From Anaerolineae bacterium (lineage in GTDB: Bacteria > Chloroflexota > Anaerolineae > Aggregatilineales > Phototrophicaceae): a stretch of 64,000 nt of DNA. This document shows positions 21,726-62,312 of the stretch, piece by piece. Position 1 is the stretch's first letter; each line of letters starts with the position of its first letter. The notes beneath the pieces were generated by a model. The model saw only the letters and a list, made by a program, of their open reading frames with translations. It was not told the DNA's origin and made no database searches. Position numbers and translations under genes: made by a program. The stretch lies in the NCBI GenBank assembly GCA_022843745.1, contig JALHNB010000028.1, forward strand, positions 1 through 64,000. The letters are read 5' to 3'.

Positions 21726-21757
21726 CTAGCAGCTAATGACTATGGACTAATGACTTA
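21726..21757 (-). repeat. Tandem heptamer array (inverted right arm)
   Basis: The complement strand reads TTAGTCC, ATAGTCA, TTAGCTG as successive heptamers, an inverted partner of the array at 21641. It touches the 3' end of the isomerase gene. Confidence 0.65.
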
Positions 21758-31757: not shown

Positions 31758-31762
31758 TATTG

Positions 31763-34819: not shown

Positions 34820-34825
34820 TTTCGC

Positions 34826-36810: not shown

Positions 36811-36813
36811 GAT

Positions 36814-38016: not shown

Positions 38017-38029
38017 TTTTTAAGTTCCT

Positions 38030-41228: not shown

Positions 41229-41256
41229 ATTTCTGCCCGTTGGTTAACGATTTTGT

Positions 41257-42744: not shown

Positions 42745-42858
42745 GTCAACCTCATATGCCCTGTCTATTCTGTCATAAAGCCGATGTCAATCGCGGATGG
42801 ATGGAATCATGATTTCCATCTTTGAATAAGGATACTCCTGAGTCGCGATTCGAGTCAT

Positions 42859-46163: not shown

Positions 46164-47335
46164 GATGGGCGCTCCAATAAGGGTTGGATATGCTCCAGCA
46201 ATCGTTCGAAAAGATGATCCCAGGAATTTTGCTGGGCAATCTGCCGTCGCTCGAAAGCACATTCGGGATTTTCTGCGTTGGTTAAAGCTGCTTCAACTTG
46301 AGCGACAAAATTGGCACCGGTGGCGATACTGACCAGATGGCGGCAAGGATCAAGCGCAGGCATATCGGTTGAAACAATCGGCTTGCCCGTTGCTAGATAT
46401 TCCCACATCTTTAACGGACTCATGGTCGCGGTTCGCTCGTAGATCAGAAATGGGACGATACACACATCCATCGCCTGGATATAGCCTGGGAGACTCGAAC
46501 GCTCGACAAAGCCGAGCCAGCGCACATTTTTGTTCTGGTTCGCTCGCGCCGCTTCAGAAGCTTTTACCGGGCCGATCACGACAATCTGACCCGGCCAGCG
46601 TTCGCTCAATGCAGCGAGGATGTCGTGGTCGAACCATTCTGCTACCAGGCCAACATAGCCGATGATGGGTTTGGGCATATCCGCGAGGGCAGGATTGATT
46701 TCCAGATGCCCGTTTCCAACCTGCGCGAATAACTCATAATCGACACCATTGGGGATATGGTGAATATTGGCATTATACGGACAGCGTGCTTCAACCAATA
46801 TTTTCGATGCGGCGAAAACGAGATCGACCTGATGTAGCAAATCACGCTCACGCCGTTCCGTTAACTGGCGAAATTTTGGCACAAACAAGCCGTAATCGTC
46901 GGTGATGTCATAAACGTTATGCGATGGGGCAGGTTGCAGACGGGGCAGGATATGCAAATTAAGCGGGACGCGATTCCAGGCGATATAGTTTCTCCAACCG
47001 CGCTTTCGCAGCTCGGCATTCACTGGATGAGCGATTTGAGCACCTACCACACGCGCCATCATTTCGCTGCGCATCGAGCCGGGTAAAACAGGCGGCAGAG
47101 TCATCACGTCCAGACCTTCGGCAACGGTGCGCACCTGCGGTTTAGCAAACGGCGCACGCCAATCACCGCTTCGGACACTCCCTGCCAGAGAACGCGGCGT
47201 TTCGACATAAAGAATTTCCGCGCCCAATTTTGCCAACCGCAGAGTGAAGTGATTCTGGCGTGTCCATACATGATCCCAGGGGGGCATATTGAGCCATAAT
47301 AATTTTTGCCCTTTGATGAACGCTGAATCGATCAT
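46160..47335 (-). CDS. Glycosyltransferase family 1 protein
   Basis: A 391-residue GT-B-type protein. LLWLNMPPWDHVWTRQNHF is an N-terminal start seen in surface-glycan glycosyltransferases. VYDITDDYGLFV, NIHHIPNGVDYELFAQ, IGYVGLVAEWFDHDILAAL, GPVKASEAARANQNKNVRWLGFV and TMSPLKMWEYLATGKPIVSTDMPALDPCRHLVSIA form the donor-binding half. Overlaps on both sides by four bases. The sugar is unknown. Confidence 0.86.
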   Translation of the reverse strand: MIDSAFIKGQKLLWLNMPPWDHVWTRQNHFTLRLAKLGAEILYVETPRSLAGSVRSGDWRAPFAKPQVRTVAEGLDVMTLPPVLPGSMRSEMMARVVGAQIAHPVNAELRKRGWRNYIAWNRVPLNLHILPRLQPAPSHNVYDITDDYGLFVPKFRQLTERRERDLLHQVDLVFAASKILVEARCPYNANIHHIPNGVDYELFAQVGNGHLEINPALADMPKPIIGYVGLVAEWFDHDILAALSERWPGQIVVIGPVKASEAARANQNKNVRWLGFVERSSLPGYIQAMDVCIVPFLIYERTATMSPLKMWEYLATGKPIVSTDMPALDPCRHLVSIATGANFVAQVEAALTNAENPECAFERRQIAQQNSWDHLFERLLEHIQPLLERPS

Positions 47336-48297
47336 TTTTCAACGCCCTCCAAATAGGCTTGCGCCATTTTTTCGATGCCTTCAGCAGCCGTAAAGGGTGG
47401 CGACCATTTCAGGTCTTTATAGGCCTTACTTGAATCGATGACAAGCGACCCCCAGAGTTGATCGACGATGTTTTCTTTGCCAATGATCTGCGCCAGGAGT
47501 CGTATCGGTGCTTCCGGCGCTGGAAACAGCCGAGCAGGGCGATTCATGGCGTTGGCGAGTAAGCGGATCAGTTCCGTTGTTGATAAATCCTGCTCATCGC
47601 TGACGATAAATGTCTGGTTGGCTGCGGCGGGTGAAACGACACAATGGATCAGGAAATCCGCCAGATTATCGACACCGATTAAGCTGCGACGGTTGCCCGT
47701 ACTCGCCAACGGGAGTGGAACGCCGCGATAGACCCACTTTAGCAAACGGCGCATGTTCCCCGGTGCGCCCGCGCCATGCACCAGCGGAGGACGCACGATG
47801 ACGATTTCGAATCCTGTTTCTGAGCGAACCTGCTGCAAGGCTTGTTCGGCTTCCCATTTGGCGATGGCATAATGGCTCCTGGGCGCTGGCACGGAATGTG
47901 TTGTGAATGGCTCACCAACTTGCGTACTGCTGCCGAGTACACCAATCGAACTGACGAAAATAAAGCGCTGGATACCAGATTGGGCTGCCTGCTGCGCCAG
48001 TTGTTTTGTACCTTCGACATTGACCGCGCGAAACGCTGCCAGAGGATCAGCGGTTTTATTATCCAGGATGTGCGCTCGTGCCGCCAGATGGATGACGACT
48101 TGAATCCTCTCCAGTGCGCCTGACCAATCGGTATCGCGTCCAATATCGCCCACTGCGATGACATCGGAATGCGCATCATCGGATTTTCGGATTGCTTCGC
48201 GCACCCAATAACCAGAATCACGCAGTTCGCGGCAAAGCGTTTTCCCGATAAAGCCGTTTGCGCCTGTGACCAGGACTCGCGCTTTTGCTGGTTTCAT
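47332..48297 (-). CDS. NAD-dependent epimerase/dehydratase (extended SDR)
   Basis: A 321-residue nucleotide-sugar enzyme. TGANGFIGKTL is the NAD loop, HLAARAHI follows strand 4, FVSSIGVLG contributes the Ser, and YAIAKWEAE gives Tyr-x-x-x-Lys. The HLAARxH motif and short C-terminus resemble WbpV/Gne-like UDP-GlcNAc C4-epimerases. Start 48297 (MKPAKAR) overlaps the preceding stop and is preferred to 48333. With the WecA-like initiator it may supply the first sugar. Confidence 0.88.
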   Translation of the reverse strand: MKPAKARVLVTGANGFIGKTLCRELRDSGYWVREAIRKSDDAHSDVIAVGDIGRDTDWSGALERIQVVIHLAARAHILDNKTADPLAAFRAVNVEGTKQLAQQAAQSGIQRFIFVSSIGVLGSSTQVGEPFTTHSVPAPRSHYAIAKWEAEQALQQVRSETGFEIVIVRPPLVHGAGAPGNMRRLLKWVYRGVPLPLASTGNRRSLIGVDNLADFLIHCVVSPAAANQTFIVSDEQDLSTTELIRLLANAMNRPARLFPAPEAPIRLLAQIIGKENIVDQLWGSLVIDSSKAYKDLKWSPPFTAAEGIEKMAQAYLEGVEK

Positions 48298-49475
48298 CGA
48301 GCTACCGCGCCTACAGAATGGACTTGCGCACAAACCGCGAGTGTTTGAGCGATAATGGTGGTGGTCGAAAACTCACTTTCCGCAATTTCTCGGCTGCGTC
48401 GTCCCATTTGGGTGCGCAATTCACGATCTTCGATCAGGCGACGCATTGCATCGGCTAAAGTCTGTGAATCGCGCACACGAACCAGTAAGCCATTTTCGCC
48501 ATCATAGACGATCTCCCGGCAGCCGGGTACATCCGTCGTGACTATTGGACGACCAGAAGCGGCAGCTTCGATAAGCGCTTTGGGAATGCCTTCACGATAA
48601 GACGGGAGACAGACGATATGCGCCTCTCGAAATATTTTCGGCATATTCTCGCACCACCCCCACCATTCGATCACACCGCTGTCGTGCCAGCGCTGTAATT
48701 GATCGCGCGAAATAGCCGCCGGGTTATCCGGATCGGTGTCACCCACCAACACAAAACGCGCCTCTATCCCTGCTTCTTTCAACTGTGTGGTGGCTTCGAC
48801 AAATTCGCCAACGCCTTTATCCCAGAGCATTCGCGATGGCAAAACGATGATCGGCACTCCATCGGGTTCGGGCGTGACGGAAAAATTTTGCATATCAACG
48901 CCAGAGCCTTTGATGACGGCGACTATCTCCGATTTAACTAACCCTTGCTCAATAAATACCTTAGAATCATCGCTGTTTTGAAACAACGTGCGCATATTCG
49001 GATGTCCAAGTGCCAAACGATAGGCTGACTTTACACCTGTGCGCAGCAAAGAGGCCTTGAGACCAGTCGCGAGAAAGACGTATCCCAGCCCTGTGACCGC
49101 GCTAATCACCGCCGGGACATGCGTCACCCGCGCAAGAATGCCACCGTAAAGCACAGGCTTAATCGTGGCGTGATAGACCAGATCGGGCTTGAGTGCTTTG
49201 TAAATTTGGTATAGCTGGATCATCACGCGCAATTCACCCAGTGGGTCGATGCTGCCGCGTTTGATCGAGATCGGATGGTAGTGAAAACCCAATGAACGAA
49301 TCGTGTCCGCAGCGTTGGCGACGACCATTTTTTCAAGCGCGTCTGCTTCGGCGGGAGCAGCGACATGCACTTCATAGCCAGCATCACGTATGGCCTGCAT
49401 CACAGGCAAACGATGTGTCAGAAAATATCCCGCGTGGTTGCCAACATATAAAAAACGAGGTGGATTGTTCAACAT
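48294..49475 (-). CDS. Glycosyltransferase family 4 protein (PglA/CapM-like)
   Basis: A 393-residue GT-B enzyme. FLYVGNHAGYFLTHRLPVMQAIRDAGYEVHVAAP and HATIKPVLYGGILARVTHVPAVISAVTGLGYVF are characteristic of CapM/PglA-like transferases. The donor site is LPSYREGIPKALIEAAASGRPIVTTDVPGCREIV. An ATG at 49502 extends the frame, but the candidate -10 at 49507 places the transcript start near 49500, so 49475 (MLNNPPRF) is more likely. It would add the second sugar to an undecaprenyl-linked primer. It is the first gene of the minus-strand glycan operon. Confidence 0.87.
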   Translation of the reverse strand: MLNNPPRFLYVGNHAGYFLTHRLPVMQAIRDAGYEVHVAAPAEADALEKMVVANAADTIRSLGFHYHPISIKRGSIDPLGELRVMIQLYQIYKALKPDLVYHATIKPVLYGGILARVTHVPAVISAVTGLGYVFLATGLKASLLRTGVKSAYRLALGHPNMRTLFQNSDDSKVFIEQGLVKSEIVAVIKGSGVDMQNFSVTPEPDGVPIIVLPSRMLWDKGVGEFVEATTQLKEAGIEARFVLVGDTDPDNPAAISRDQLQRWHDSGVIEWWGWCENMPKIFREAHIVCLPSYREGIPKALIEAAASGRPIVTTDVPGCREIVYDGENGLLVRVRDSQTLADAMRRLIEDRELRTQMGRRSREIAESEFSTTTIIAQTLAVCAQVHSVGAVAR

Positions 49476-49506
49476 GGTTGTATATCTGGTGCAATAACCC
49501 ATCGGC

Positions 49507-49515
49507 AGTATAGCA
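49507..49515 (-). promoter_or_regulatory. Extended -10 promoter of the minus-strand glycan operon
   Basis: TG-C-TATACT reads on the minus strand at 49515-49507, with transcription expected near 49500, 25 bases before ATG 49475. Confidence 0.55.
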
Positions 49516-49540
49516 TCAGGCAGATTTTCAGGATAGCAAT

Positions 49541-49610
49541 TTCACGACAACAAGATAGAGCACAAGATAGAGATCTTCACCACAACAATATAACGCCTTC
49601 ACGACGACAA
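49541..49610. repeat. Three direct repeats in the divergent promoter region
   Basis: TTCACGACAACAA (49541-49553), TTCACCACAACAA (49576-49588) and TTCACGACGACAA (49598-49610) lie between two divergent extended -10 boxes. ACAAGATAGAG also occurs twice, at 49550 and 49563. A shared regulator binding here is inference. Confidence 0.65.
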
Positions 49611-49621
49611 TTAAGGGATTG

Positions 49622-49630
49622 TGCTATATT
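49622..49630 (+). promoter_or_regulatory. Extended -10 promoter of the exporter operon
   Basis: TG-C-TATATT (49622-49630), the same TGC-linked form as the divergent promoter, 55 bases before the TTG start at 49685. Confidence 0.5.
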
Positions 49631-49684
49631 GGTACATGATAGGTGCATATACCAGCAACCGATGCTTGAGGAGATACAACGAGT

Positions 49685-50566
49685 TTGAGCAGCCCGATCC
49701 CAGTTGAGCAGATTATCGAGAAATCCCCTCAGCATTTGCAGGCTAAACCGCGACTGCGTCTAGCACCAACCAAAGGCTGGGTATCTCTCAATTTTCAGGA
49801 ATTGAAAGAATATCGCGAGCTGTTGTTTTTTATGACCTGGCGCGACATCAAGGTGCGCTATAAACAGACCGTGATTGGCGCACTCTGGGCGATTATTCAG
49901 CCTTTTCTGACGATGGTCGTTTTTAGCTTGTTTTTTGGTCGTCTTGCGGGCGTACCTTCAGACAATATTCCCTATCCGATTTTTACCTATGCCGCACTTG
50001 TGCCCTGGACTTTTTTCGCGAATGGGCTGACGAATTCTGCGAACAGCCTTGTTTCAAACGCGAATTTGATCAAAAAAGTCTATTTTCCACGCTTAATTCT
50101 GCCTGTATCCGCAATCATGTCCGGCGTGATTGATTTTTTTCTGGCGTTCGTGATTTTACTGGCGATGATGCTTTTTTACGGTATTGTGCCAACGGTCAAT
50201 GTGATATGGCTACCGGCTTTTTTACTGTTAGCAGTGGTCACATCGCTGGGGGTAGGTTTGTGGTTTGCCGCGATGAACGTTCAGTTCCGCGACGTGCGCT
50301 ATGCGATTCCGTTTCTGGTGCAGTTCTGGATGTTCGCGACTCCTGTTGCCTATCCAAGCTCGATGATTAAGAATGATCTTTTACGGGCGTTGTATGGGAT
50401 TAATCCGATGGCTGGCGTGATAGAGGGATTCCGCTGGGCGCTGCTTGGCACAGAAACCTCGCCGGGTGCAATTATTGTCGTATCGTCACTCGCAGCGTTA
50501 TTGATGCTGATCGGTGGATTGTACTATTTCAAGCGGCTGGAAAAGACCTTTGCGGATGTGGTGTAG
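49685..50566 (+). CDS. Polysaccharide ABC exporter permease (Wzm/TagG type)
   Basis: A 293-residue ABC2-type membrane protein with about six hydrophobic segments after a 50-residue cytosolic N-terminus. ELLFFMTWRDIKVRYKQTVIGALWAIIQPFLTM is the family's interfacial start; NLIKKVYFPRLILPVSAI is a conserved coupling region; NPMAGVIEGFRWAL ends the core. It exports lipid-linked glycan across the inner membrane with the ATPase encoded next. Start is TTG, with AGGAG 11 bases upstream. Confidence 0.92.
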   Translation: MSSPIPVEQIIEKSPQHLQAKPRLRLAPTKGWVSLNFQELKEYRELLFFMTWRDIKVRYKQTVIGALWAIIQPFLTMVVFSLFFGRLAGVPSDNIPYPIFTYAALVPWTFFANGLTNSANSLVSNANLIKKVYFPRLILPVSAIMSGVIDFFLAFVILLAMMLFYGIVPTVNVIWLPAFLLLAVVTSLGVGLWFAAMNVQFRDVRYAIPFLVQFWMFATPVAYPSSMIKNDLLRALYGINPMAGVIEGFRWALLGTETSPGAIIVVSSLAALLMLIGGLYYFKRLEKTFADVV

Positions 50567-50599
50567 TACGATGGTCGTAACAATCTGGTGTAATCCTTC

Positions 50600-51853
50600 A
50601 TGAGCGATATTGCAATTGATCTGCAAAATATTGGTAAGCAGTACAAGATTGGGGGTGAACGCCAACGCTACCGGGCGCTGCGGGATACGCTCACGGATAT
50701 TGTAAAGACCCCTGTGCGACGTGCGCGTAATATTTTGAGGGGACAGGCTTACGCAGCATCCGACATGAATGAGACATTTTGGGCGCTGCGTGATGTGAAC
50801 CTGCAAATCAAGGATGGCGAAGTCGTCGGTATTATTGGGCGCAATGGTGCGGGCAAAAGTACGCTGCTGAAAATTTTGTCGCGCATCACCGAGCCGAGTG
50901 AAGGTTATGCGGATATTTATGGGCGGGTCGGTGCGCTTCTCGAAGTCGGCACAGGCTTTCACCCGGAGCTAACCGGACGCGAGAATATTTTTCTCAACGG
51001 CGCGGTTTTGGGGATGCGGCGTGGCGAGATTCTGCGCAAATTTGATGAAATTATTGCCTTTGCTGAAGTCGAAAAATTCATTGACACGCCTGTGAAGCAT
51101 TATTCGAGTGGTATGGCGCTGCGATTGGGCTTTTCGGTGGCGGCACACCTCGAGCCAGAAATTTTGCTGGTCGATGAAGTGCTGGCGGTGGGTGATTTCG
51201 CATTTCAGAAAAAATGCCTGGGTAAAATGGATGATGTGGCGAAGTCCGGGCGGACGGTGCTGCTGGTCAGCCACAACATGGCGGCGATTGCCAATTTGTG
51301 TACGGCGACGGTGCTGCTGAATCGCGGTCAACTGGTCAATTATGGCCCGACGGCGGATATTATCGAGCAATATTTAAATATGGGAGATGTCGAAGATGAG
51401 ATAGATGAAGTTTTAAGGGATGGTCGATACGTTGAGAAAATAGAATGTCGCGATCATTTAAACAACCCGACACAGACTTACCGTGTTGGTGATCCGCTGG
51501 TTATTGATGTCACCCTTAAGAATCTGGATCAAATCGCGTCACCCAATTTAGGGCTACTGGTGTGCAATCATTTTGGGGATCGCTTAATCTTATTGTCTCC
51601 CCATGTTCAGTCAGAACTGGTTTTATCACGACTGGATCGAAAAACGTATCGTGTCATCACCGAACCGCTTAATTTACTGCCCGGATACTATACTTTTGAG
51701 ATTAGTATCGGCAGCGGTTATGAGACGGTTGAAAATTTTAAGAGCTTGCCGGGATTCACAATTGAGTACACTGATTACTTCAACACTGGCAAAATGCCAA
51801 TGGCTAAACAGGGTATCCTCGCGCAAAAAGCGACCTGGCAGATTATTGACTGA
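50600..51853 (+). CDS. Polysaccharide ABC exporter ATPase with glycan-binding C-terminal domain (Wzt type)
   Basis: A 417-residue protein. Residues 1-270 are the ATPase: GRNGAGKSTLLKI (Walker A), YSSGMALRLGFSVAAH (signature), EILLVDEVLAVGD (Walker B) and LLVSHNM. Residues about 280-415 (IECRDHLNNPTQTYRVGDPLVIDVTLKN and onward) form a beta-sandwich as in Wzt C-terminal domains, which recognise the modified non-reducing end of an O-polysaccharide. That domain implies the glycan is finished and capped before export, and the nearby methyl- and acyltransferases could make the cap. Confidence 0.93.
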   Translation: MSDIAIDLQNIGKQYKIGGERQRYRALRDTLTDIVKTPVRRARNILRGQAYAASDMNETFWALRDVNLQIKDGEVVGIIGRNGAGKSTLLKILSRITEPSEGYADIYGRVGALLEVGTGFHPELTGRENIFLNGAVLGMRRGEILRKFDEIIAFAEVEKFIDTPVKHYSSGMALRLGFSVAAHLEPEILLVDEVLAVGDFAFQKKCLGKMDDVAKSGRTVLLVSHNMAAIANLCTATVLLNRGQLVNYGPTADIIEQYLNMGDVEDEIDEVLRDGRYVEKIECRDHLNNPTQTYRVGDPLVIDVTLKNLDQIASPNLGLLVCNHFGDRLILLSPHVQSELVLSRLDRKTYRVITEPLNLLPGYYTFEISIGSGYETVENFKSLPGFTIEYTDYFNTGKMPMAKQGILAQKATWQIID

Positions 51854-51888
51854 AGATTACTTCACTGAAGACCAAATGAGACTATTTC

Positions 51889-52617
51889 ATGCGGCTGTTT
51901 AATCGGAATTGGAAAGAAATTGCACACTATGTCCGTTACAACCTGAAGGGTTTTCCGCTAGCATTTTCAATGTTAGCATCGAATTCTCAGCGAAAACATT
52001 TTGGAGAATGGCTGCGTTCGCATCAAAAAGGTTATCTCCTTAAGCGTCCGATGCCCTGGATTGCCTTTGATGCGTATGATTATCTTGCTGAAATGCTGCC
52101 GGAAAAGGCTCGTGTGTTTGAATATGGCAGCGGTGGCTCAACACTTTTCTGGTTAACTCGCAAAAATTGCCAATGTGTATCCATAGAACATAACCCACAA
52201 TGGTTTGCTATCGTCAATAAATACGTGGCTGGCCTGAGTAATCAAAAGGCTCTGGAATATCGTCTGGTCGAACCAGCAGTCTTTAAGAGCGATAGGCTGG
52301 ATGTGTACGATCCGACGAAATACCTGGACGATAAAATGCGCAATTTTTCGTTTGAAAAATATGTCAAACAGATTGATGAGTTCCCGGATGCCTACTTCGA
52401 TCTGGTCATGGTCGATGGCGAATCGCGTCCGGCGTGTATCGCTCACGGTTGCCGGAAGGTCAGATCAGGCGGTTTTTTGATTGTTGATAATGCTGAACGT
52501 CGCGACTACTTTAACCATGTGAAAGCCCTGCTTGAGCCGTTCGATGAAATTTCGTTTCGTGGCGTTGTTCCAGCGGCGATGATTATGTCGCAGACCAATA
52601 TTTATCGACGGCGATAA
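51889..52617 (+). CDS. Class I methyltransferase-like protein of a glycan cluster
   Basis: A 242-residue protein. ARVFEYGSGGSTLFWLTRK resembles SAM motif I, CVSIEHNPQWFAIVN the acidic end of strand 2, and FDLVMVDGESRPACI a post-II motif, suggesting a Rossmann methyltransferase. The rest is not recognised. It lies 35 bases after the exporter ATPase, in the same operon, so glycan modification (for example capping methylation) is plausible. Confidence 0.65.
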   Translation: MRLFNRNWKEIAHYVRYNLKGFPLAFSMLASNSQRKHFGEWLRSHQKGYLLKRPMPWIAFDAYDYLAEMLPEKARVFEYGSGGSTLFWLTRKNCQCVSIEHNPQWFAIVNKYVAGLSNQKALEYRLVEPAVFKSDRLDVYDPTKYLDDKMRNFSFEKYVKQIDEFPDAYFDLVMVDGESRPACIAHGCRKVRSGGFLIVDNAERRDYFNHVKALLEPFDEISFRGVVPAAMIMSQTNIYRRR

Positions 52618-52630
52618 GCGCAGAGGAATC

Positions 52631-53137
52631 ATGCTCAAGTCCATTTTGAGGCCAATCTATCGCCGCTTTTTCCCCGTGCTGGATGCTTTCCAGGTCGCGC
52701 AATACTGGCGTGATCGGGGGATGCAGATCGGTGAAGGCACAACGCTTTACAATGTCGTTTTCGGGCGTGGTGGGCGTGATCCCATTATCATCGGCAAAAA
52801 TTGCGTTCTCACGGGTTGCACGATTTTGGGACACGATGCTTCCACTAATGCGCGACTGGGTTTCAAAGTCGGCGAAGGCTCGATTATGCAACCAGTCGTT
52901 ATTGAGGACGACTGCTTTATTGGCGTAGGGGCGATTGTCCTGATGGGCGTTACGATTGGTAAAGGCTCGATTGTCGGCGCGGGGGCGGTTGTGACCAAAG
53001 ATGTACCCGCAGGGGTCGTGGTTGGTGGCAACCCGGCTCAAACGATTTGCAGTGTTGACGAACTGGTCGAAAAACGCCGTCAGCTTTATCGCGAACACCC
53101 GGAATATTTCCCGAAAAAGCCAACAGGCATTGATTGA
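52631..53137 (+). CDS. Acyltransferase with left-handed beta-helix repeats
   Basis: A 168-residue hexapeptide-repeat protein: IGEGTTLYNVVFGRGGRDPIIIGKNCVLTGCTILGHDAS, then VIEDDCFIGVGAIVLMGVTIGKGSIVGAGAVVTKDVPAGVVVGGNPA, the standard end of WbbJ/WcaF-type transferases. His in LGHDAS is the likely base. It transfers an acyl group to a sugar in the glycan. The gene is 13 bases after its neighbour. Confidence 0.86.
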   Translation: MLKSILRPIYRRFFPVLDAFQVAQYWRDRGMQIGEGTTLYNVVFGRGGRDPIIIGKNCVLTGCTILGHDASTNARLGFKVGEGSIMQPVVIEDDCFIGVGAIVLMGVTIGKGSIVGAGAVVTKDVPAGVVVGGNPAQTICSVDELVEKRRQLYREHPEYFPKKPTGID

Positions 53138-53153
53138 AAAGTATACTCCGTTT

Positions 53154-54350
53154 ATGAAAATCTTTGCCTATGGCTCAATCCCAAAAGACGGCGGTACGTT
53201 CACGTTTTATCAGAATTTGCGCGAAGGTTTGCGCCAATATGGTTGGGACATGCGCTGTATCACGGTTGGTCCGCACGAAAATGCGGGATGGGATGATAAA
53301 TTCGCTGACGACGGTTGCATAAGAATCGCGCCTCATGAAACGGATCTCAAGAAGCAGTCAACAGCGTTTGTCGAGTGGTGCAGGGATAACCATGTTTCAG
53401 TCGTGATGCCGATTAATTCGCGTGGGATTATCGCCGCGCTGCCGCATCTGCCGCCAGAGTCGCGTATTGTCACACGCTGCGCCGACAGCACCGATGAAGG
53501 TTATCGTCGCGCGACCTATGCGCAGGAGCGAATTGCACGGGTGGTCGCGGTCACACCCCGACACGTCGAAGATTTGCCCAAAAACTATGGCATCAATCGT
53601 GAGAAAATCACGCTTATTCCGCATGGAATTGACCTCACACCTTATGTGTCAATCCACCGACTGGCAAACGATACCCTGCGAATCGTGTTCGTCGGGCGGC
53701 TGCATGAGCAAAAAGGCATTCTTTATATCCCTGGAATTTTGCAGATTCTGGAAGAACGCGGAATTTCATATCATCTGACCGTTGCGGGATCGGGTATGCA
53801 CCAGGATATTTTGCAAGATAAGATGAAAACCTCGATTCAGGCCGGGCATGTGACGTTTTTGGGGACAATTCCACGCGCAGAGATTCCGACTGTACTGTCA
53901 AAGGCTGATATTTTGCTGTTTTTGTCGCACCATGAAGGTTTTGGTTTTGCGCTGATCGAAGGTATGGCAGCGGGTTGTGTGCCAGTCGCCTCGCTGCTCC
54001 CCGGCGTGACGGATTTTATCGTCGAAAACGGCAAGACGGGTTTTTTGAGTGCGGTGGGCGATGTACAGGGCTTCGCCGCGTCGATTATCGAACTTCATCA
54101 TGATCGCCAACGGTTGCGCGAGATGGGGGAGGCAGCGGCGAAGGCTGTCCGCCAACGTTTTAGCCGGGAGCGCATGGCTGCCGAATACGCGCGTTTGCTT
54201 GATTCGGTCATGGCGATGCCACCTATCGACCTGCCACCACGCCCCTGGGATCAATTTGTCGAACCATCGCTCGACCCACGCCGCTGGCACAGTTTCGTGC
54301 CGCGTTCATTCAAGCGCTTTGCTCGGCGACTCCTGCATCGACTTACATAA
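53154..54350 (+). CDS. Glycosyltransferase family 4 protein
   Basis: A 398-residue GT-B enzyme. MKIFAYGSIPKDGGTFTFYQNLREGL opens it; ITLIPHGIDLTPYVSI, RIVFVGRLHEQKGILYIPGIL, VTFLGTIPRAEIPTVLSKADILLFLSHHEGFGFALIEGMAAGCVPVASLLPGVTDFIV are the donor-site motifs. Start 53154 is chosen, because the longer frame from 53001 overlaps the acyltransferase gene by 137 bases. The 3' end overlaps the convergent RraA-like gene by eight bases. Confidence 0.88.
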   Translation: MKIFAYGSIPKDGGTFTFYQNLREGLRQYGWDMRCITVGPHENAGWDDKFADDGCIRIAPHETDLKKQSTAFVEWCRDNHVSVVMPINSRGIIAALPHLPPESRIVTRCADSTDEGYRRATYAQERIARVVAVTPRHVEDLPKNYGINREKITLIPHGIDLTPYVSIHRLANDTLRIVFVGRLHEQKGILYIPGILQILEERGISYHLTVAGSGMHQDILQDKMKTSIQAGHVTFLGTIPRAEIPTVLSKADILLFLSHHEGFGFALIEGMAAGCVPVASLLPGVTDFIVENGKTGFLSAVGDVQGFAASIIELHHDRQRLREMGEAAAKAVRQRFSRERMAAEYARLLDSVMAMPPIDLPPRPWDQFVEPSLDPRRWHSFVPRSFKRFARRLLHRLT

Positions 54351-55044
54351 TTCCAAATTTGGCGAAGGCCTCGACGGTACTCATGCCTTCTTCGATAGCT
54401 TTCCGCACCAGTTTCTCGCCCCGCGCTTTTTCGATAGCCTTGTTAAAAACTTCTTCTTCAGCAGCTTTGGGGATCACACATACGCCGTCGATGTCGCCAA
54501 AAACGATGTCCCCCGGCAGAATTTTGACACCGCCGATTTCCAACGGTACGCGAAAATCAATCACCTTACCGCGCACGCCCTGATCCTGGGCATAGCGCCC
54601 ATACGAAAATGTCGGAAATTTGAGATCGAGTATGCCTGGAGTATCCCGCGAATAGCCATCCAGAACTGCGCCTGCCGCGCCCAATTTGATCGCGCGGGTA
54701 CTCATTAACTCGCCCCAGAGTGCGTATTTGGGCGAACTGCCTGTGCAAATATAAACCTCATTGGGTTTCAGGTCATCCAGCGCTTCGAGCATGAGGCCAA
54801 ATGGCTTATTCATCAGCGGGTTCGCGCTATTGGAAACTTTGTCCGTGAAAACGTCAGCTTCTAACACGGGCATCGCGCGTCCAATCGCGACCATATCCGG
54901 CGAAAGTGCCTGAATTTGCGGCGGTAAGAATTGAAGCTGTAGGCCTAACTTATCCATCACATCGCCCACAACGGCTGTAAAAAGTTCCTGACGTGCCAGC
55001 TTGAAAAGTTCGTCATCTGATTGCCAAAGTTTTGCCAAGATCAT
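54343..55044 (-). CDS. RraA family protein / HMG-CHA aldolase-like
   Basis: A 233-residue RraA-fold protein. VVGDVMDKLGL, then GELMSTRAIKLGAAGAVLDGYSRDTPGI (Gly-Glu-Leu-x-Thr/Ser-x-x-x-x-x-x-Gly, the active site of the family), and ILPGDIVFGDIDGVCVIPKAAEEEV are clear. Homologues are divalent-metal aldolases (4-hydroxy-4-methyl-2-oxoglutarate/4-carboxy-4-hydroxy-2-oxoadipate) or RNase-E regulators, and several sit in sugar-acid operons. An aldolase for a keto-sugar acid is the most likely role here. It is transcribed divergently from the next gene. Confidence 0.86.
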   Translation of the reverse strand: MILAKLWQSDDELFKLARQELFTAVVGDVMDKLGLQLQFLPPQIQALSPDMVAIGRAMPVLEADVFTDKVSNSANPLMNKPFGLMLEALDDLKPNEVYICTGSSPKYALWGELMSTRAIKLGAAGAVLDGYSRDTPGILDLKFPTFSYGRYAQDQGVRGKVIDFRVPLEIGGVKILPGDIVFGDIDGVCVIPKAAEEEVFNKAIEKARGEKLVRKAIEEGMSTVEAFAKFGIM

Positions 55045-55100: not shown

Positions 55101-55128
55101 TTGACAGTCCATATGGATTGTATACAAT
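55101..55128 (+). promoter_or_regulatory. Strong promoter of the apnL-apnO-like operon
   Basis: TTGACA (55101-55106) and TACAAT (55123-55128) are 16 bases apart, 28 bases before ATG 55156. A 12-base palindrome overlaps the -10. Confidence 0.7.
55117..55128. promoter_or_regulatory. GntR-type operator-like palindrome
   Basis: ATTGTATACAAT is a perfect 12-base palindrome over the -10 box, matching the TNGTNNACNA style bound by FadR/FCD-subfamily GntR repressors. No GntR gene lies in the window, so the regulator is unknown. Confidence 0.55.
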
Positions 55129-55155: not shown

Positions 55156-57093
55156 ATGTCACTTACATCGCGAGAAATTTATTATGGTCAGGATGTGCCG
55201 CTGCCAGAGCAAATCATGCTGTCTGCTGGGCCGCTGTCACTGGCATTTGAGGACGGCAGTCTGCGGACGATAAAGGCCGGGAATGCGGAAGTCGTGCGGC
55301 AGATTTACAGTGCTGTACGCGATCAGGGTTGGGCAACAATCATCCCTCAGCTCACCATTCTTGAAAAACAAATTAATTCCGATTCATTTCATCTTCGATT
55401 CAAGGCTGAACACCTGCGCGGAGAAATTCATTTTGCCTGGATCGGAACGATTGACGGTACAGCAGATGGCATCGTGACTTTCGATCTGGATGGCGAAGTG
55501 CTTTCGACCTTCCAGCGCAACCGCATTGGTTTCTGCGTGCTGCATTCGATGGCCTATGGTGGGCAGGAATGTGTGGTTGAGCGAGTCGATGGCACAGAAA
55601 TCGTGGGGACATTTCCGCAGTTTATTTCACCCCACCAGCCATTTAAAGATATGCGGGCGATTCGCTATGTCGTCAGCCCCGGCGTGACGGCGGAAGTGCG
55701 CTTTGAAGGCGATACTTTTGAGACAGAAGATCAGCGTAACTGGACGGATGCCTCTTACAAGACCTACTGTACCCCACTTGAAGTTCCTTATCCGGTCACG
55801 GTGGAAAAAGGGACAAAAATTCATCAGCGCATTACCGTGCGATTGATCGAACAAGCGCCACAAGGCAAATCGAAACTGGAAGGTGCAGCGCTGCAATTTG
55901 CGGTTGGTGGGCGTACTTCGCCGCTGCCCAAAATTGGCTTGAGCGTTGCCAGTCATGGTCAGCCGCTTACGAATCTTGAAATCGAACGTTTGAAAGCGCT
56001 TAACCTATCCCACTTACGTGCGGAACTGCACTTCTCGAAGCCGGACGTAGAGGCCAAGCTGCGGCAGGCTGTCAATGAAGCCCGTGCCCTGAACATCGGT
56101 TTGGAGATCGCACTGTTCCTCTCAACTGACCCTGAGCGCGAATTGCGAATGTTGCGGGCAAGTCTGGATGTTGTAAAACCAACGATTGCCCGCTGGATGA
56201 TTTACCGCGACAAGGAATTTGTAACTTCCGAAAAGTGGATTCGACTCGCGCGTGAAATTCTTGGCGATTATGACTCTTCGGCGGGATTTGGCGGTGGGAC
56301 GGACGGGTTTTTCTCTGAACTGAACCGCAATCGTCCAACGCTCGAGGGCCTCGATACGGTAAATTATTCACTCAATCCCCAGGTTCATGCTTTTGATAAC
56401 GTGACGATGGTCGAAAATCTGGCAGCGCAGGCTGTGACGCTCGACAGCGCCCGACAGTTTTGTGGAGATATTCCGCTTACCGTCAGCCCGATTACACTCA
56501 GGATACGCTATAACCCTGTCGTTGCTACACCCGAAGCGCCTCCTCCTCCCGGTGAGCCGCCCTCACAGGTGGATGCGCGTCAAATGTCACTCTTCGGGGC
56601 TGGCTGGACGGTTGGCAGCGTCAAATATCTCGCTGAAAATGGCGTTTCAAGCCTGACCTATTACGAAACCACCGGCTGGAAAGGCGTTATGGAAACGACA
56701 CAGGGCACACCACTGCCCGAAAAATTCCATTCGATTCCCGGCTCGGTTTTCCCGACGTATCATGCGTTGGCGGATATTGGCGCATTTGCCGGGGGAGAAG
56801 TTGTTGCTAGCCAATCCAGCGCACCGGAACTCGTGGATGGTATTGCGTTGCGCAGGGGTGACAACGTCCGAGTGATTCTCGCGAATTTTGGCCCTGTAAC
56901 ACAGCGCGTGACACTTGAAGGGCTTGTCGGTGACCTAACGATGCAATCATTGGACGAGACGAATGCAGAAGAGGCGATGGTCAAACCGGAAGCATACCGC
57001 ACACTGGTCGGTGAAAAACATAATACGACTACTATTGAACTCAAGCCGTTCGCTATCGTGCGGCTGGACGGTCAACTAACAGGAGAAAATTAA
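55156..57093 (+). CDS. Candidate D-apionate lactonase
   Basis: A 645-residue protein of no ordinary domain layout. SAGPLSLAFEDGSLRTIKAGNAEVVRQIYSAVRDQGWATI, IGFCVLHSMAYGGQECVVERVDG, FPQFISPHQPFKDMRAIRYVVSPGVTAEVRFEGDTFETEDQRNWTDASYKTYCTPL are long stretches that I recall from the D-apionate lactonase family (ApnL), which opens D-apionolactone to D-apionate. The second half (KIGLSVASHGQPLTNLEIERLKALNLSHLRAELHF) looks like a TIM-barrel region. The next gene resembles the next enzyme of that route. The ATG has CAGGAG upstream. No signal peptide; cytosolic. Confidence 0.68.
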   Translation: MSLTSREIYYGQDVPLPEQIMLSAGPLSLAFEDGSLRTIKAGNAEVVRQIYSAVRDQGWATIIPQLTILEKQINSDSFHLRFKAEHLRGEIHFAWIGTIDGTADGIVTFDLDGEVLSTFQRNRIGFCVLHSMAYGGQECVVERVDGTEIVGTFPQFISPHQPFKDMRAIRYVVSPGVTAEVRFEGDTFETEDQRNWTDASYKTYCTPLEVPYPVTVEKGTKIHQRITVRLIEQAPQGKSKLEGAALQFAVGGRTSPLPKIGLSVASHGQPLTNLEIERLKALNLSHLRAELHFSKPDVEAKLRQAVNEARALNIGLEIALFLSTDPERELRMLRASLDVVKPTIARWMIYRDKEFVTSEKWIRLAREILGDYDSSAGFGGGTDGFFSELNRNRPTLEGLDTVNYSLNPQVHAFDNVTMVENLAAQAVTLDSARQFCGDIPLTVSPITLRIRYNPVVATPEAPPPPGEPPSQVDARQMSLFGAGWTVGSVKYLAENGVSSLTYYETTGWKGVMETTQGTPLPEKFHSIPGSVFPTYHALADIGAFAGGEVVASQSSAPELVDGIALRRGDNVRVILANFGPVTQRVTLEGLVGDLTMQSLDETNAEEAMVKPEAYRTLVGEKHNTTTIELKPFAIVRLDGQLTGEN

Positions 57094-57094
57094 C

Positions 57095-57940
57095 GTGACA
57101 AAAACAATCGCTCTTTTTGGGGCAGGGGGCAAAATCGGGTCGCGCATCGCCCGCTTACTCAGTCAGGATTCGGCCTATCGGACCTTATTTGTTGAGGGTG
57201 GAGAGGCAGGCAGGGCGCGTCTCCAGGAGATGAATCTGACACCAACACCCGCTGAAGACGCGATTGGCGATGCAGATGTTGTCATTCTGGCGGTGCCGGA
57301 TTTACTGATTGGCAAAATCGCCGGGGAAATTGTCCCGCATCTGAAATCTGGCTCAATGGTTATCGGACTCGACCCCGCTGCGCCATTCAGCGGAAAATTC
57401 CCGCCGCGCGAGGACATCAGCTATTTTGTGACGCACCCCTGTCACCCGCCTGTCTATAACGACGAAACCGACCCGACAGCGCGAATGGATTATTTCGGTG
57501 GTACGGCAAAACAAAATATTGTCTGTGCGATTATGCAGGGGACTGAATCGGACTATGCTCTGGGTGAGGAGATCGCCCGCAAAATGTTCGCGCCCGTGAT
57601 GAAAGCGCACCGCGTGACCGTCGAGCAAATGGCGATTCTGGAGCCAGCGCTGGTCGAGACGATCACGATTACCTGCATGACGGTTATCCGTGAGGCGATG
57701 GATGAAGCCATCAAGCGTGGCGTACCGCCGGAAGCTGCTCAGGATTTTTTGCTGGGGCATATCAACATTGATATCGCGATTTTGTTCGGGTTTTTAAACG
57801 CGCAGTTTTCCGATGGCGCGAAGATGGCCGTCAAACGGGGCATGGAGCAGATCATTCAGCCGGACTGGAAAAAAGTTTTTGAGCCGGAAAATGTGATGCG
57901 CGAGGTCAAGATCATTACCGAAGGCGTTCAAAACCGATAG
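57095..57940 (+). CDS. Candidate D-apionate oxidoisomerase (NAD-binding, 6PGDH-like)
   Basis: A 281-residue dehydrogenase with N-terminal ALFGAGGKIGSRIARLLS (NAD loop) and a helical C-terminal region (PALVETITITCMTVIREAMDEAIKRGVPPEAAQDFLLGHINIDIAILFGFL) like the phosphogluconate-dehydrogenase C-terminal domain. Such small proteins include D-apionate oxidoisomerase (ApnO), which forms 3-oxo-isoapionate. It is encoded one base after the ApnL-like gene, which is the main support; the fold alone would allow other 2-hydroxyacid dehydrogenases. Confidence 0.65.
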   Translation: MTKTIALFGAGGKIGSRIARLLSQDSAYRTLFVEGGEAGRARLQEMNLTPTPAEDAIGDADVVILAVPDLLIGKIAGEIVPHLKSGSMVIGLDPAAPFSGKFPPREDISYFVTHPCHPPVYNDETDPTARMDYFGGTAKQNIVCAIMQGTESDYALGEEIARKMFAPVMKAHRVTVEQMAILEPALVETITITCMTVIREAMDEAIKRGVPPEAAQDFLLGHINIDIAILFGFLNAQFSDGAKMAVKRGMEQIIQPDWKKVFEPENVMREVKIITEGVQNR

Positions 57941-58739: not shown

Positions 58740-61700
58740 TTAAACGAGATGCAGTTCCTGAGCGCGGACGATCACCTGGGTGCGACTGGTGACACCGATT
58801 TTGTCGTAGATGTGGGTGATATGTTTTTTGATCGTGCTTTCGGCGACGACAAGGCGCTCGGCAATTTCACGATTGGATAAACCAGCCGCCAACAATACGA
58901 GAACTTCAAGCTCACGCTCGGAAAGTGGATTCACAAGCTTATTATTGATCGTCAGCGTTTGACTGGGAATTAAAGATGAAGGGGAATCTGCTGCGAGCGT
59001 TTTATCAATTTCGTTCAGCAGTATCCTTATGGTCGCTTCTAAGTCCAGCGCTTTGCCGCGTTCCCAGGCATCCGCAAATTCATCAAAGCCGAGATCGGCC
59101 TCTAAATCTGCCCGTAAGCGTATCAGCGGCGGCCATTTTTCGATAATCCCTTTAGCGCCGGCAGAGTGATGATATGCCAGAGAAAAAAGCGAAGTCGCAC
59201 GTTTTTTGTCATCTCTATGCCCTTGAATGAGCGCAACAATCAGCAAACACCAGGTTTTAATCATCGAACTGCGGTGGGTATGGTGCAGCATGTAGGTCAT
59301 ACGTTCCCATGCCGCGTCGTAATTTCCTGAGCCACAAACACACATCACCAGGGCAAGCTCACCGATAATGACGGGTACGAAGCCATACGCGCTTTCCGTT
59401 GCCTTACCCTGGTTAAAAAATGACTCCGCATTCGTGTAGTCTTCCTCGATAATACTGATGAGCGCCATGAGCACGAGTGCTGGCATTTTGTCACGCATAT
59501 GGGGCATTTGATTGATGAGAGGTACACACTCATCGGCGAGTTTTTTGGCGCGATCCATATCACCCCGCAAAAGAGCCATCACGCCTAGTTGGGCTGTATT
59601 CCAGACGATACCCCAGGCAGTCATCATCTCGCGAGTCAACAAGGCGGCTTCTTGGTACGACAGTTCGGCGACGGTGTATAAGCCTTTGAGGAGTGCGTTT
59701 TCGGCCAGCATCGAGAGCGACGTAGCCGTTCGCAGCGTGTCGCCCATTTCGCGGCTGAGTTCAAGCCCTTTGCGGTAGAACAGGATGGCATCACTCAGTT
59801 GTTCGAGGCGCGTTCGGCACAAGCCGAGATTGGTATAGACATCCGCCATCGCGAAACGGTTATCGAGTTGTTGATAATATTCCAGACTTTGCTCATATAG
59901 CTTGATTGCCGCCGTAAAATTGTGATCGTGGTCATAGGTCAGCCAGCCAAGTGTTTGCAGACTGATGGCGATTCCCAGATGGTCATCATACTGACGGGCA
60001 ATCGTGAGCGCTTTCTCAACATTCGCTTTAGGATCAGGTACATAAGGCCAGGTACGTGCTAACAGCCGACCATACACAGGATGGGGTTGCTCATGGTTTT
60101 TAGGAGTAAAGCTTGCCATCGCGCGGAGTGAAATATCTTTTGTTTCGTACCGAATGAAGCCAAACCAATAAAGGCTTTCCAGCATTTGATGAATGAAGTC
60201 ATAGTATTTATTGCTGATCGCCCAATCTGCCGCGAGAACAATATTTTTGAAATCCGTTTCGATCTCATCGAGTGCTCCTAACTGGCGGCGGCCTTTCAGA
60301 TCAGCTTCGCGTTCGTGCAAAAAGCTGGCGAAATATTGGCTGTGTGCGTGGCGGATGGTTTCACTCTCGCCGGATAATTCCAATTGTTCTTTAGCATACT
60401 GCCGCAGCAGATCGTGGATTTCGTAGCGGCCTTCCGGTGTGCGCGAAAGGAGCGATTTGTTCGCTAGGCCTGTAAGATCGCGCAGGGACGCATTGGCAAC
60501 TGCTTGGGCGGCTGGTCGCGTAAACCCATCTCGAAAAACGGACAATCTGGCAAAAACAGCCCGTTCCGCTTCCTTGAGCATATTCCACGAGTGTAAAAAT
60601 ACCGCCCGGATGCTCCGCTGGCGTTCGGGTACATCACGCATTTCGGTTGCCAGAAAATCAAAGCTGCGGCTGATCTCGTCGGCAATTTCCTCAAGTGAGA
60701 TCATTTCCAGCCAGGCTGCGGCCAGGAGAATGCCGAGGGGCATCCCCTGTACAAGGCGGCAGATGGCGACGATGTGCGGCAAATCTTCATGCCGTGCCTG
60801 AAAATCGGGCTGAACCCGGCGCGCCCGCTGTGCGAATAATTTGACGGCACTGGAATCGAGCGCTGCATCAATCGTTTCCGGGAAATCCATACCCGTCAGA
60901 TTGAAGATGGTTTCGTCACTCAGGTTGAGCCTTTCGCGCGAGGTCGTCACGATTTGTACCTGCGGCGCGGCTTCTAGCATCTCATGCGTAAGAGGGCTGC
61001 TGTCGATCAGATGCTCAAAATTGTCTAATACCAACAGCACCTTTTTGTCGTGAAGGTGATCCATCAAATGCAGCTTTGGCTCACGCTCATCAGACGGGAT
61101 TTTATAGCCAATCGCGTCAGCTATTGCGCTGATAATATTTTCGGCTGAACGTAGTGGCGCAAGGGCGACAAAATAAACCCCTTCGCTGAAATTTTCGATC
61201 TGGCGATTGGCAGCTTCCAGCGCAAGGCGTGTTTTGCCCATACCACCAGGGCCGAGAATCGTAATCAGGCGCGTTTCAGGCTGCTCTAACAACCTATTCA
61301 ACTCGATGAGTTCGTTCTCACGCCCGATAAACGCCGTCGTTTGAGCAGGTAAATTGTGTCTGGATGGACTCGTTAAATTCGCCTGACCGCTGATGTTGAT
61401 CGTAGAGGATGGTAATCGAGCGGCAGCCTTTGAAGATGTTCCTTGAATCACGGCCTCAAGTTCCGCGCCGACTAACCGCATACTGGGAATCCGAGCGTTA
61501 CGGTCTTTTTCGAGCATCCGATAGATCAGGTCGATCAGGCTGATCGGAATATCAGGCCGCAGTTTATCCAGGTCAGGCGGGGGATAGGAAGTGATTGCTA
61601 ACAGAATTTGGGCAACGCTGTTCCCTGTAAAGGGAATCTGCCCCGTTAACATCTCGTAGAGGGTAATGCCAAATGCCCAGATGTCGGAGCGTGTATCAAC

Positions 61701-62261
61701 TTGTTCCCCGTTTAAGACTTCCGGCGAGATATAACTAAACGTGCCGATGAACGCATTTTCCTGCGTCGTGTCTGTGCCTTTATTCTGGATCGTTGCCACG
61801 CCAAAATCTGTCAATCTTGGCGTACCATCGTCAGCGATCAGGATATTGCTCGGTTTGATGTCACGGTGGATGATTTTGAGATAATGTGCGCGGGTGAGCG
61901 CATCGGCGAGTTCAATACCGATTGTCAGGACACGCTCTAGTGAAAGATGGGACTCGGCCTCAATCATATCATCCAGCGAGCCACCGCCGATGAATTCCAT
62001 GACGAGGTAATGTTTGTCCGCTTCCTCAAAGGCATCCAATACTCGGACGATATTCGGGTGTTGAAGCTGGCGGAGAATGTCGGCCTCGCGTTTAAAGCGC
62101 TTGAGGATATTGGGGTCTTTGGTAACGATTTCTGGGCGCAATAATTTTACGGCAATCGGCTGCTGGGTTTGTAAATCCAGCCCATCATAGACTGTACCCA
62201 TGCTGCCTGAGCCAATTTCGTTGTGAAGTTGATACCGATCACCGATTATGCGCTGAGTCAT
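58740..62261 (-). CDS. Serine/threonine kinase - NB-ARC ATPase - TPR - LuxR HTH regulator
   Basis: A 1173-residue protein. Residues about 10-270: kinase with GSGSMGTVYDGL, AVKLLRPE, HRDIKPSNILI (catalytic Asp about 130), TDFGVATI, GTFSYISPEVLNG. From about 320: FIGRENELIELNRLL and P-loop GPGGMGKTR, with VLLVLDNFEHL (Walker B), an NB-ARC/STAND ATPase. Residues about 700-1080 hold TPR-like helices (NFTAAIKLYEQSLEYYQQL, LSDAILFYRKGLELSREM). The last 65 residues are a LuxR-type HTH (LSERELEVLVLLAAGLSNREIAERLVVAESTIKKHITHIYDKIG), so it can bind DNA. Start at 62261 with GGAGG about eight bases upstream. A one-chain signalling protein coupling kinase activity and transcription. Confidence 0.92.
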   Translation of the reverse strand: MTQRIIGDRYQLHNEIGSGSMGTVYDGLDLQTQQPIAVKLLRPEIVTKDPNILKRFKREADILRQLQHPNIVRVLDAFEEADKHYLVMEFIGGGSLDDMIEAESHLSLERVLTIGIELADALTRAHYLKIIHRDIKPSNILIADDGTPRLTDFGVATIQNKGTDTTQENAFIGTFSYISPEVLNGEQVDTRSDIWAFGITLYEMLTGQIPFTGNSVAQILLAITSYPPPDLDKLRPDIPISLIDLIYRMLEKDRNARIPSMRLVGAELEAVIQGTSSKAAARLPSSTINISGQANLTSPSRHNLPAQTTAFIGRENELIELNRLLEQPETRLITILGPGGMGKTRLALEAANRQIENFSEGVYFVALAPLRSAENIISAIADAIGYKIPSDEREPKLHLMDHLHDKKVLLVLDNFEHLIDSSPLTHEMLEAAPQVQIVTTSRERLNLSDETIFNLTGMDFPETIDAALDSSAVKLFAQRARRVQPDFQARHEDLPHIVAICRLVQGMPLGILLAAAWLEMISLEEIADEISRSFDFLATEMRDVPERQRSIRAVFLHSWNMLKEAERAVFARLSVFRDGFTRPAAQAVANASLRDLTGLANKSLLSRTPEGRYEIHDLLRQYAKEQLELSGESETIRHAHSQYFASFLHEREADLKGRRQLGALDEIETDFKNIVLAADWAISNKYYDFIHQMLESLYWFGFIRYETKDISLRAMASFTPKNHEQPHPVYGRLLARTWPYVPDPKANVEKALTIARQYDDHLGIAISLQTLGWLTYDHDHNFTAAIKLYEQSLEYYQQLDNRFAMADVYTNLGLCRTRLEQLSDAILFYRKGLELSREMGDTLRTATSLSMLAENALLKGLYTVAELSYQEAALLTREMMTAWGIVWNTAQLGVMALLRGDMDRAKKLADECVPLINQMPHMRDKMPALVLMALISIIEEDYTNAESFFNQGKATESAYGFVPVIIGELALVMCVCGSGNYDAAWERMTYMLHHTHRSSMIKTWCLLIVALIQGHRDDKKRATSLFSLAYHHSAGAKGIIEKWPPLIRLRADLEADLGFDEFADAWERGKALDLEATIRILLNEIDKTLAADSPSSLIPSQTLTINNKLVNPLSERELEVLVLLAAGLSNREIAERLVVAESTIKKHITHIYDKIGVTSRTQVIVRAQELHLV

Positions 62262-62282
62262 GCCCCACGCCCTCCGAACGTG

Positions 62283-62312
62283 ATTATGACAAATTTGTCC
62301 TAATTTGACCAA
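62283..62312 (-). promoter_or_regulatory. Promoter of the kinase-LuxR gene with palindromic spacer
   Basis: On the minus strand TTGGTC (62312-62307) and CATAAT (62288-62283) are 18 bases apart; the spacer holds the perfect palindrome GACAAATTTGTC (62288-62299), a candidate operator or autoregulatory site. Confidence 0.5.

Follow-up and report, generated by a model that had tools for sequence, protein, structure and literature searches.

A probable oxidative D-apiose route with an OiaC-type ending, scattered over several loci, in an Anaerolineae bacterium

The window analyzed here, a 64,000-nucleotide stretch of contig JALHNB010000028.1 from an Anaerolineae bacterium (Chloroflexota; assembly GCA_022843745.1), carries two plus-strand genes, at 55156-57093 (ATG start, 645 residues) and 57095-57940 (GTG start, 281 residues), that are separated by the single base 57094. 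An initial annotation had read them as encoding proteins like D-apionate lactonase (ApnL) and D-apionate oxidoisomerase (ApnO), consecutive enzymes of oxidative D-apiose breakdown. Both frames are open, without internal stops, and AGGAG lies a few bases 5' of each start, which confirms a real pair of genes one base apart; because homologs of both co-occur in the loci of relatives, the pairing is not due to chance. Two more plus-strand genes of apiose type lie 22 kb upstream in the same window, one for a xylose-isomerase-type TIM-barrel protein (OiaC-like; 30942-31757, 271 residues) and one for a Gfo/Idh/MocA dehydrogenase (ApsD-like; 31754-32785, 343 residues), and a palindromic putative operator overlaps the -10 box of the apnL promoter. 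Family matches, conserved residues, the gene context in relatives (which includes OiaK, OiaX, ApsD-like, OiaC-like and apiosidase genes), the operator, and the further pathway genes in the window all support assignment to oxidative D-apiose breakdown. With a probability of roughly 0.8, the pair would supply the lactonase and oxidoisomerase of that pathway in a variant that ends with an OiaC-type decarboxylase; such a route, spread over at least three loci, is probably real and working.

In the scheme we propose, whose reaction order is reportedly that of Carter et al. 2018, an apiosidase would release D-apiose from plant glycans, the ApsD-like dehydrogenase would convert D-apiose to D-apionolactone, ApnL would convert D-apionolactone to D-apionate, and ApnO would oxidize D-apionate with NAD and move its hydroxymethyl group to give 3-oxo-isoapionate, from which the OiaC-like protein would form L-erythrulose and CO2. 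A GntR/FCD regulator encoded on contig C59 of the same genome is predicted to bind the palindrome at the -10 box and to repress apnL-apnO until an intermediate releases it. We infer the substrates, the OiaC reaction and the repression in this scheme, as well as the fate of L-erythrulose.

The ApnO-like and ApnL-like proteins

The smaller protein of the pair matches PF16896 (PGDH_C) at E 1.9e-62 and aligns over nearly its full length with PDB entries 5T57 (E 1.4e-89) and 3C24 (E 1.1e-78), the first of which bears the name "Semialdehyde dehydrogenase NAD-binding protein" and is, we take it, tied to ApnO. In an alignment that leaves out L164 and L187, it is 53-54% identical to PGDH_C proteins from apiose loci of Rhizobium, Shinella and Sinorhizobium, 52% identical to a protein on an unannotated Cupriavidus plasmid, and 35% identical to the ApnO-type protein of Pantoea; the name ApnO for the rhizobial and Cupriavidus proteins presumably goes back to Carter et al. 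2018. The GAGGK dinucleotide motif (G9, G12, K13), the PGDH_C domain and the HPCHP motif (H114-P115-C116-H117-P118) are all kept. An NCBIfam search returned no ApnO-named match for this protein or for its relative in genome G016. An ApnO-like gene from a haloarchaeon lies on a plasmid of Natrinema sp. SYSU A 869 (L134 9097-11543) with a four-carbon acid sugar kinase gene and a RuBisCO-like fragment, and may mark an apiose-type locus in an archaeon.

For the larger protein the likeness is more distant. NCBIfam model NF049900 ("D-apionate lactonase") matches it at E 1.2e-91 and 308 bits, short of the curated equivalog cut-off of 750, and our claim is therefore limited to "ApnL-like". With the same model, 1055 bits are reached by a Rhizobium protein whose locus has an annotated OiaX, while a protein encoded within an OiaK/OiaX gene run of G016 also falls under the cut-off, at 357 bits. 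The window protein is about 30% identical to ApnL of the Rhizobium/Agrobacterium type and keeps the residues that never vary across 62 family rows and five proteobacterial proteins, including R123, E189, E191, D192, R194, W196, D198, K202, H411 and R475. A PDB sequence search with it gave nothing convincing (best E 0.23). Its neighborhood agrees with the assignment, with the ApnO-like gene one base 3', the ApsD-like and OiaC-like genes upstream, and fuller clusters in relatives. The resemblance first proposed for the pair thus stands for ApnO, on its identity to rhizobial apiose-locus proteins, and holds for ApnL at a distance.

The low ApnL score leaves room for an alternative in which the true substrates of the pair are some other lactone and hydroxy acid (a further branched acid or an aldonic acid), the apiose name being carried over from elsewhere. 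Two observations weigh against apiose in the same way. The 80 best of at least 396 ApnL-like loci from named genomes were examined; 54 have none of ApnO, ApsD, OiaC, OiaK or OiaX in the available DNA, many of the contigs being short. The rows most like the window protein, at 54-55% identity, come from Poribacteria (L150) and Latescibacterota (L151), and in both a 2-hydroxyacid dehydrogenase gene and an HpaI-type aldolase gene lie directly upstream of the ApnL gene, an arrangement seen also in L153, L163 and L206. The window protein nevertheless groups with relatives whose loci carry OiaK/OiaX. In a tree built by a quick method without bootstrap, from which the short ApnL piece of L036 was excluded, it falls in a supported 12-row set (Shimodaira-Hasegawa-like approximate likelihood ratio test, 95) that consists of the window protein, eight rows with at least two apiose-pathway neighbors (two of these being one locus from two collections) and three rows with none. 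Given that the ApnO, ApsD-like, apiosidase and operator results are all consistent with apiose, we consider a different substrate improbable.

The dehydrogenase-aldolase-ApnL module is conserved in its own right (L150 2206-3866, L151 3166-4808, L153 5018-6660, L163 4030-5681, L206 4422-6109), with aldolases 65-77% identical, and its hosts belong to Poribacteria, Latescibacterota, Rokuibacteriota and Thermomicrobiales. It possibly represents another route for apionate, or one for some other lactone; given these contexts, ApnL-like proteins may have roles beyond a single route, or apionate may be broken down in a second way. In two Chloroflexi genomes (G077 and G095) an ApnL-like gene adjoins an M29 aminopeptidase-like gene (L033 2883-5915, L034 9066-12116), with apiose genes not nearby.

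AlphaFold2 was run on 62 sequences, with 61 of the 80 ApnL-like loci used in the structure alignment. The model of the window protein (predicted local distance difference test score 94.3, predicted template modeling score 0.94) shows an N-terminal beta-sandwich at about residues 1-240, followed at 242-640 by a barrel and beta domain like those of glycoside hydrolase (GH) clan A. This second part aligns with solved clan GH-A-type hydrolases at Z 24.4-27.5 and root-mean-square deviations of 3.0-4.4, among them bacterial heparanase, beta-glucuronidase, GH51 arabinofuranosidase and GH30 xylanase (GH79/GH51/GH30-type, by family numbers that are in part presumed), while the fold of residues 1-240 was barely tested in the comparison. 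Foldseek places 3CLW first (E 6.2e-14, 9% identity). Enzymes of clan GH-A carry a pair of catalytic glutamates, one after strand 4 and the other after strand 7; strand counting on the model finds no conserved glutamate at either place (E354, after strand 4, is present in 34 of 62). Invariant positions include H411, R475 and several within the N-domain stretch 185-202, and this stretch may join the active site. A shared GH-A-like fold by itself shows no function; if the predicted fold is right, ApnL would be a lactonase related to glycoside hydrolases.

A palindromic operator and the apiosidase locus

A pattern scan places a sigma-70-like promoter, TTGACA-16-TACAAT (11 of 12 positions), before apnL at 55101-55128 on the plus strand. 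Promoter-like sites show no excess in the region overall, since five were found against a shuffle mean of 3.2. The palindrome ATTGTATACAAT (55117-55128) overlaps the -10 box and is a putative operator, predicted to be a site for the GntR/FCD regulator of contig C59. It is the sole exact copy in the genome (7,960,424 bases), which holds 13 sites with at most one mismatch as compared with 3 for the reversed pattern. Its form, GTA-TAC, agrees with the palindrome consensus GTM-N0-1-KAC that the accessible portion of PMC4494728 gives for the FadR subfamily.

One of the one-mismatch sites lies on C59, about 30 bases before the GntR/FCD gene itself, which an apiosidase gene then follows, so that a GntR-type operator is found at both the pair and the apiosidase locus. 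Upstream of the GntR gene are an epimerase-like gene, a LacI-type gene, and ATP-binding cassette (ABC) sugar-transport genes that are a candidate, and only a candidate, for the apiose importer. The C59 GntR is 54-60% identical to the GntR proteins of eight of nine distinct apiose loci in relatives and 48% identical to that of the ninth. Operator statistics were taken from 228 kb of apiose loci in relatives, made up of 15 stretches picked after a first look at 23. They contain 19 sites with at most one mismatch, eight of them exact, where 40 permuted palindromes gave a mean of 0.1 and a maximum of 2 in the same stretches, and every one of the 19 either precedes a gene for GntR, ApnL, a binding protein or OiaK or lies at its start. 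The operator and the places where it occurs are matters of observation, as are the genes, their homology and the fact that they occur together.

Some of what was found counts against a regulon that covers the whole route. Sites are present in ten of the 15 stretches and missing from five (L024, L029, L035, L120, L121), and the siteless loci include that of G028 and the G026 locus that is nearest to the window in ApnO. No operator was found before the OiaC-like gene, where the best score is -2.2 and each of the 19 training sites reaches at least 16.0; the regulon may therefore not extend to this half of the route. Eight further stretches from relatives (L021, L026, L028, L031, L033, L034, L123, L234) have no site with at most one mismatch.

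A weaker site on C59, just before the binding-protein gene (L230 15725), scores 11.9, no more than a site at 24945 of the window that is put down to chance (11.9), and was not used. The 11 one-mismatch copies other than that on C59 were not counted as regulon members, eight of them lying inside open reading frames; in L254 the copy overlaps a start codon, the gene being closest in the PDB to a ribulokinase, and the L259 copy touches the start of an unassigned open reading frame preceding transporter permeases. The copy at L257 3559 (G000 C31:36058) stands 87 bases before a gene with a signal of twin-arginine translocation (TAT) type, followed by transporter permeases; these transporter genes are a candidate importer of the same regulon. 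The operator offers a direct handle for seeking the remaining genes, namely those for the importer and for the fate of the C4 product.

The apiosidase on C59 belongs to PF13204, with PDB entry 8T9W ("Apiosidase") as its best match at E 1.3e-27, and is one of two strong apiosidase matches in the genome, the other being on C69. Ten of the 80 ApnL-like loci have an apiosidase, and nine of these ten have at least one of ApnO, ApsD, OiaC, OiaK and OiaX, as compared with 17 of the 70 loci without apiosidase (Fisher p 1.1e-4, relatedness not corrected). In a set of 61 genomes, a strong apiosidase (at least 190 bits) occurs in seven, six of which have ApnL, against seven of the other 54 (p 1.9e-4). 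None of the 16 relatives' ApnL stretches first fetched has an apiosidase nearby. Judging by the apiosidase genes only, rhamnogalacturonan II may be the source of the apiose.

The OiaC-like gene and the ending of the route

The OiaC-like protein, a proposed 3-oxo-isoapionate decarboxylase, matches PF01261 at E 4.9e-23, and the ApsD-like protein, a proposed D-apiose 1-dehydrogenase, matches PDB entry 5UHW at E 9.5e-76. Both came to light through relative G028, which carries ApnO-OiaC-ApsD-ApnL on a 3.8 kb contig: when its cluster genes are used as queries, the best matches for both in our genome fall in the same window as the pair. The OiaC-like protein is 59% identical to the product of the gene adjoining ApnO in G028. 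The ApsD-like protein is 60% identical to that of a G028 cluster gene, with other matches in the genome at 24-28%, and 38-39% identical to Gfo/Idh proteins of four proteobacterial apiose loci. An NCBIfam search with the OiaC-like protein gave no match.

The extent of the system was explored in 101 whole genomes (our own and 100 relatives). An ApnL-like gene occurs in 17 of them, our own included. ApnO matches reach at least 200 bits in 13; at E 0.001 any match is found in 46, the remainder scoring at most 28 bits. The family to which these genomes belong lies in the Anaerolineae of Chloroflexota, and in a sample of 400 genomes from the phylum only three, our own included, have ApnO at E 1e-40. 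Genome G016 encodes in a single run ApsD-like, OiaC-like, DUF6786, ApnO-like, OiaK (NF042436, 511 bits), OiaX (NF042437, 446 bits) and ApnL-like proteins, a sugar ABC transporter, a binding protein and GntR; in other relatives the apiose genes are dispersed over contigs or places. None of the 101 genomes has OiaK or OiaX above the 700-bit cut-off. The set as a whole has thus diverged from the proteins on which the two models rest, and genes under the curated cut-offs for ApnL, OiaK and OiaX may accordingly escape automatic annotation.

In our genome (completeness 98.58%) OiaK and OiaX have no match at E 0.001, while the same searches are positive in relatives; an ending by decarboxylation, with OiaC, is therefore most likely. 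The G028 genome (75% complete) likewise has no OiaX match, and an OiaK match of 126 bits only. In the ApnO tree the window protein groups with a G026 copy on contig C356, beside an OiaC-like gene, and with L180, whose locus reads ApnO-OiaC-ApnL and has no OiaX in the available DNA. It stands apart from a 14-row family set containing the OiaX-linked copies, and G026 has both kinds.

The decarboxylase assignment has a competitor, in which the pair does take part in apiose breakdown but the OiaC-like protein performs a core step of isomerase or epimerase type that serves either ending, and an unrecognized enzyme finishes the ApnO product. Every one of the 13 genomes with strong ApnO has an OiaC-like match of at least 280 bits, and OiaX accompanies it in 11 of them (in one as a partial match). 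OiaC-like genes share runs with OiaK and OiaX in G016, G050 and members of other phyla (L164, L203), so OiaC-like proteins may not be an alternative to OiaK/OiaX; were the two pure alternatives, the co-occurrence would be odd. Homologs at 35-36% identity lie in rhizobial transketolase gene runs with no PGDH_C gene in the stretch examined, and the OiaC-like protein is only 29% identical to the TIM-barrel protein encoded next to the ApnO-type gene on Pantoea plasmid pPAT9B04. On the other hand, seven loci (L180, L210, L213, L217, L225, L227, L229, the last two nearly identical) combine ApnO with an OiaC-like gene and show no OiaK or OiaX in the available DNA. In Pantoea the TIM-barrel gene lies directly 5' of the ApnO-type gene, and a dihydroxyacetone-kinase-family gene belongs to the same run, as would be expected of a stand-alone decarboxylase. 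Finally, residues E137, D164, H190 and E238 of the OiaC-like protein, which we take to be the usual metal set of the TIM-barrel fold, are kept in 11 of 11 aligned proteins. The core-step explanation is the strongest competitor, yet on this evidence it appears unlikely.

A decarboxylase ending has a further difficulty downstream. The OiaC branch leads on to a Dak-type L-erythrulose kinase, and no Dak1 (PF02733) match was found in our genome, a search that was positive in two of 11 genomes and three of 14 controls. The gene at L254 was rejected as an erythrulose kinase, its best match being ribulokinase 3QDK (E 2.5e-215) and its neighbor an L-ribulose-5-phosphate-epimerase-like gene. The relatives' binding protein likewise had no match at E 1e-10 in our genome, in a search run without a positive control. 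The lack of a close binding-protein match, the missing OiaK and OiaX, and the splitting of the genes over loci might be expected of a decaying remnant that has lost OiaK, OiaX and the transporter and whose four genes no longer make up a working route. All four apiose-type frames in the window are open, however, and their codon-position composition resembles that of six other window genes; the operator is a flawless copy, the only exact one in the genome. Decay therefore seems very improbable to us.

A more specific picture of apiose catabolism in Chloroflexota can be drawn, which we offer tentatively and rate as somewhat doubtful when taken as a whole. One GntR would govern scattered loci; the ApnO product would be handled without the kinase, the RuBisCO-like protein or a Dak-type kinase, so that the last steps would be undescribed; and the lactonase would be a GH-A-like scaffold without the two catalytic glutamates, having a different conserved active site shared with the beta-sandwich domain.

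Known systems and neighboring genes

The oxidative pathway of the Rhizobium/Agrobacterium type reportedly consists of ApsD, ApnL, ApnO, OiaK and OiaX (Carter et al. 2018 is said to be the source). ApsD-, ApnL- and ApnO-like enzymes are encoded here too, and relatives of the same family also have OiaK/OiaX; our genome differs in its want of any OiaK/OiaX match, in the spread of its genes over at least three places, in an ApnL so distant in sequence, and in the presence of an OiaC-like gene. Pantoea sp. At-9b pPAT9B04 is alike in that a TIM-barrel gene, whose product we assume to be the one named OiaC, adjoins a PGDH_C (ApnO-type) gene with no OiaX in the stretch examined. On its other side the TIM-barrel gene is flanked by a triose-phosphate-isomerase-family gene, and a dihydroxyacetone-kinase-family gene also adjoins, unlike our genome with its lack of a Dak1 match. 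Rhodobacteraceae strain LCG007, for which the available part of PMC11747546 reports growth on D-apiose as sole carbon source, shares annotated ApnL, ApsD and ApnO and differs, according to the same text, in having OiaK and OiaX in one cluster. As described in the portion of PMC13001218 at hand, the Pectobacterium/Escherichia apiose cluster (MetaCyc PWY-8089, with a D-apiose isomerase in Pectobacterium) has the substrate in common with the present route.

What is new here appears to be a variant of the known apiose pathway, lacking the two usual late enzymes, in Chloroflexota, and it would add a family of Anaerolineae to the likely users of this branched plant sugar. The suggestion that apiose use is little described in Chloroflexota fits our literature search, which found no paper joining apiose and Anaerolineae; two papers that bring up both apiose and Chloroflexota mention the sugar, in the passages concerned, solely among the roles of form IV RuBisCO.

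An RraA-like gene at 54343-55044, divergent from apnL, was rejected as a pathway member: it has no homolog at E 1e-12 in 22 stretches from relatives, in a Sinorhizobium locus or in the 80 ApnL-like loci. Just downstream of the OiaC-like and ApsD-like genes, a minus-strand run at 33794-38824 encodes a luciferase-like (F420/LLM-type) oxidoreductase, a D-2-hydroxyacid dehydrogenase (34% identity with its L156 counterpart), a pair of xylose-isomerase-like TIM barrels and another Gfo/Idh/MocA dehydrogenase, and is perhaps another sugar-acid route. Between the two halves of the apiose genes, 39088-54350 holds a polysaccharide cluster with glycosyltransferases, an O-antigen-ligase-like protein and a Wzm/Wzt-type ABC exporter (49685-51853). 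Farther upstream, at 21755-23958, divergent genes encode a TIM-barrel protein and an enolase-superfamily protein that resemble galactonate-type dehydratases. Two large Ser/Thr kinase proteins with ATPase domains and TPR repeats are encoded at 24027-27461 and 58740-62312, the second ending in a LuxR-type DNA-binding domain.

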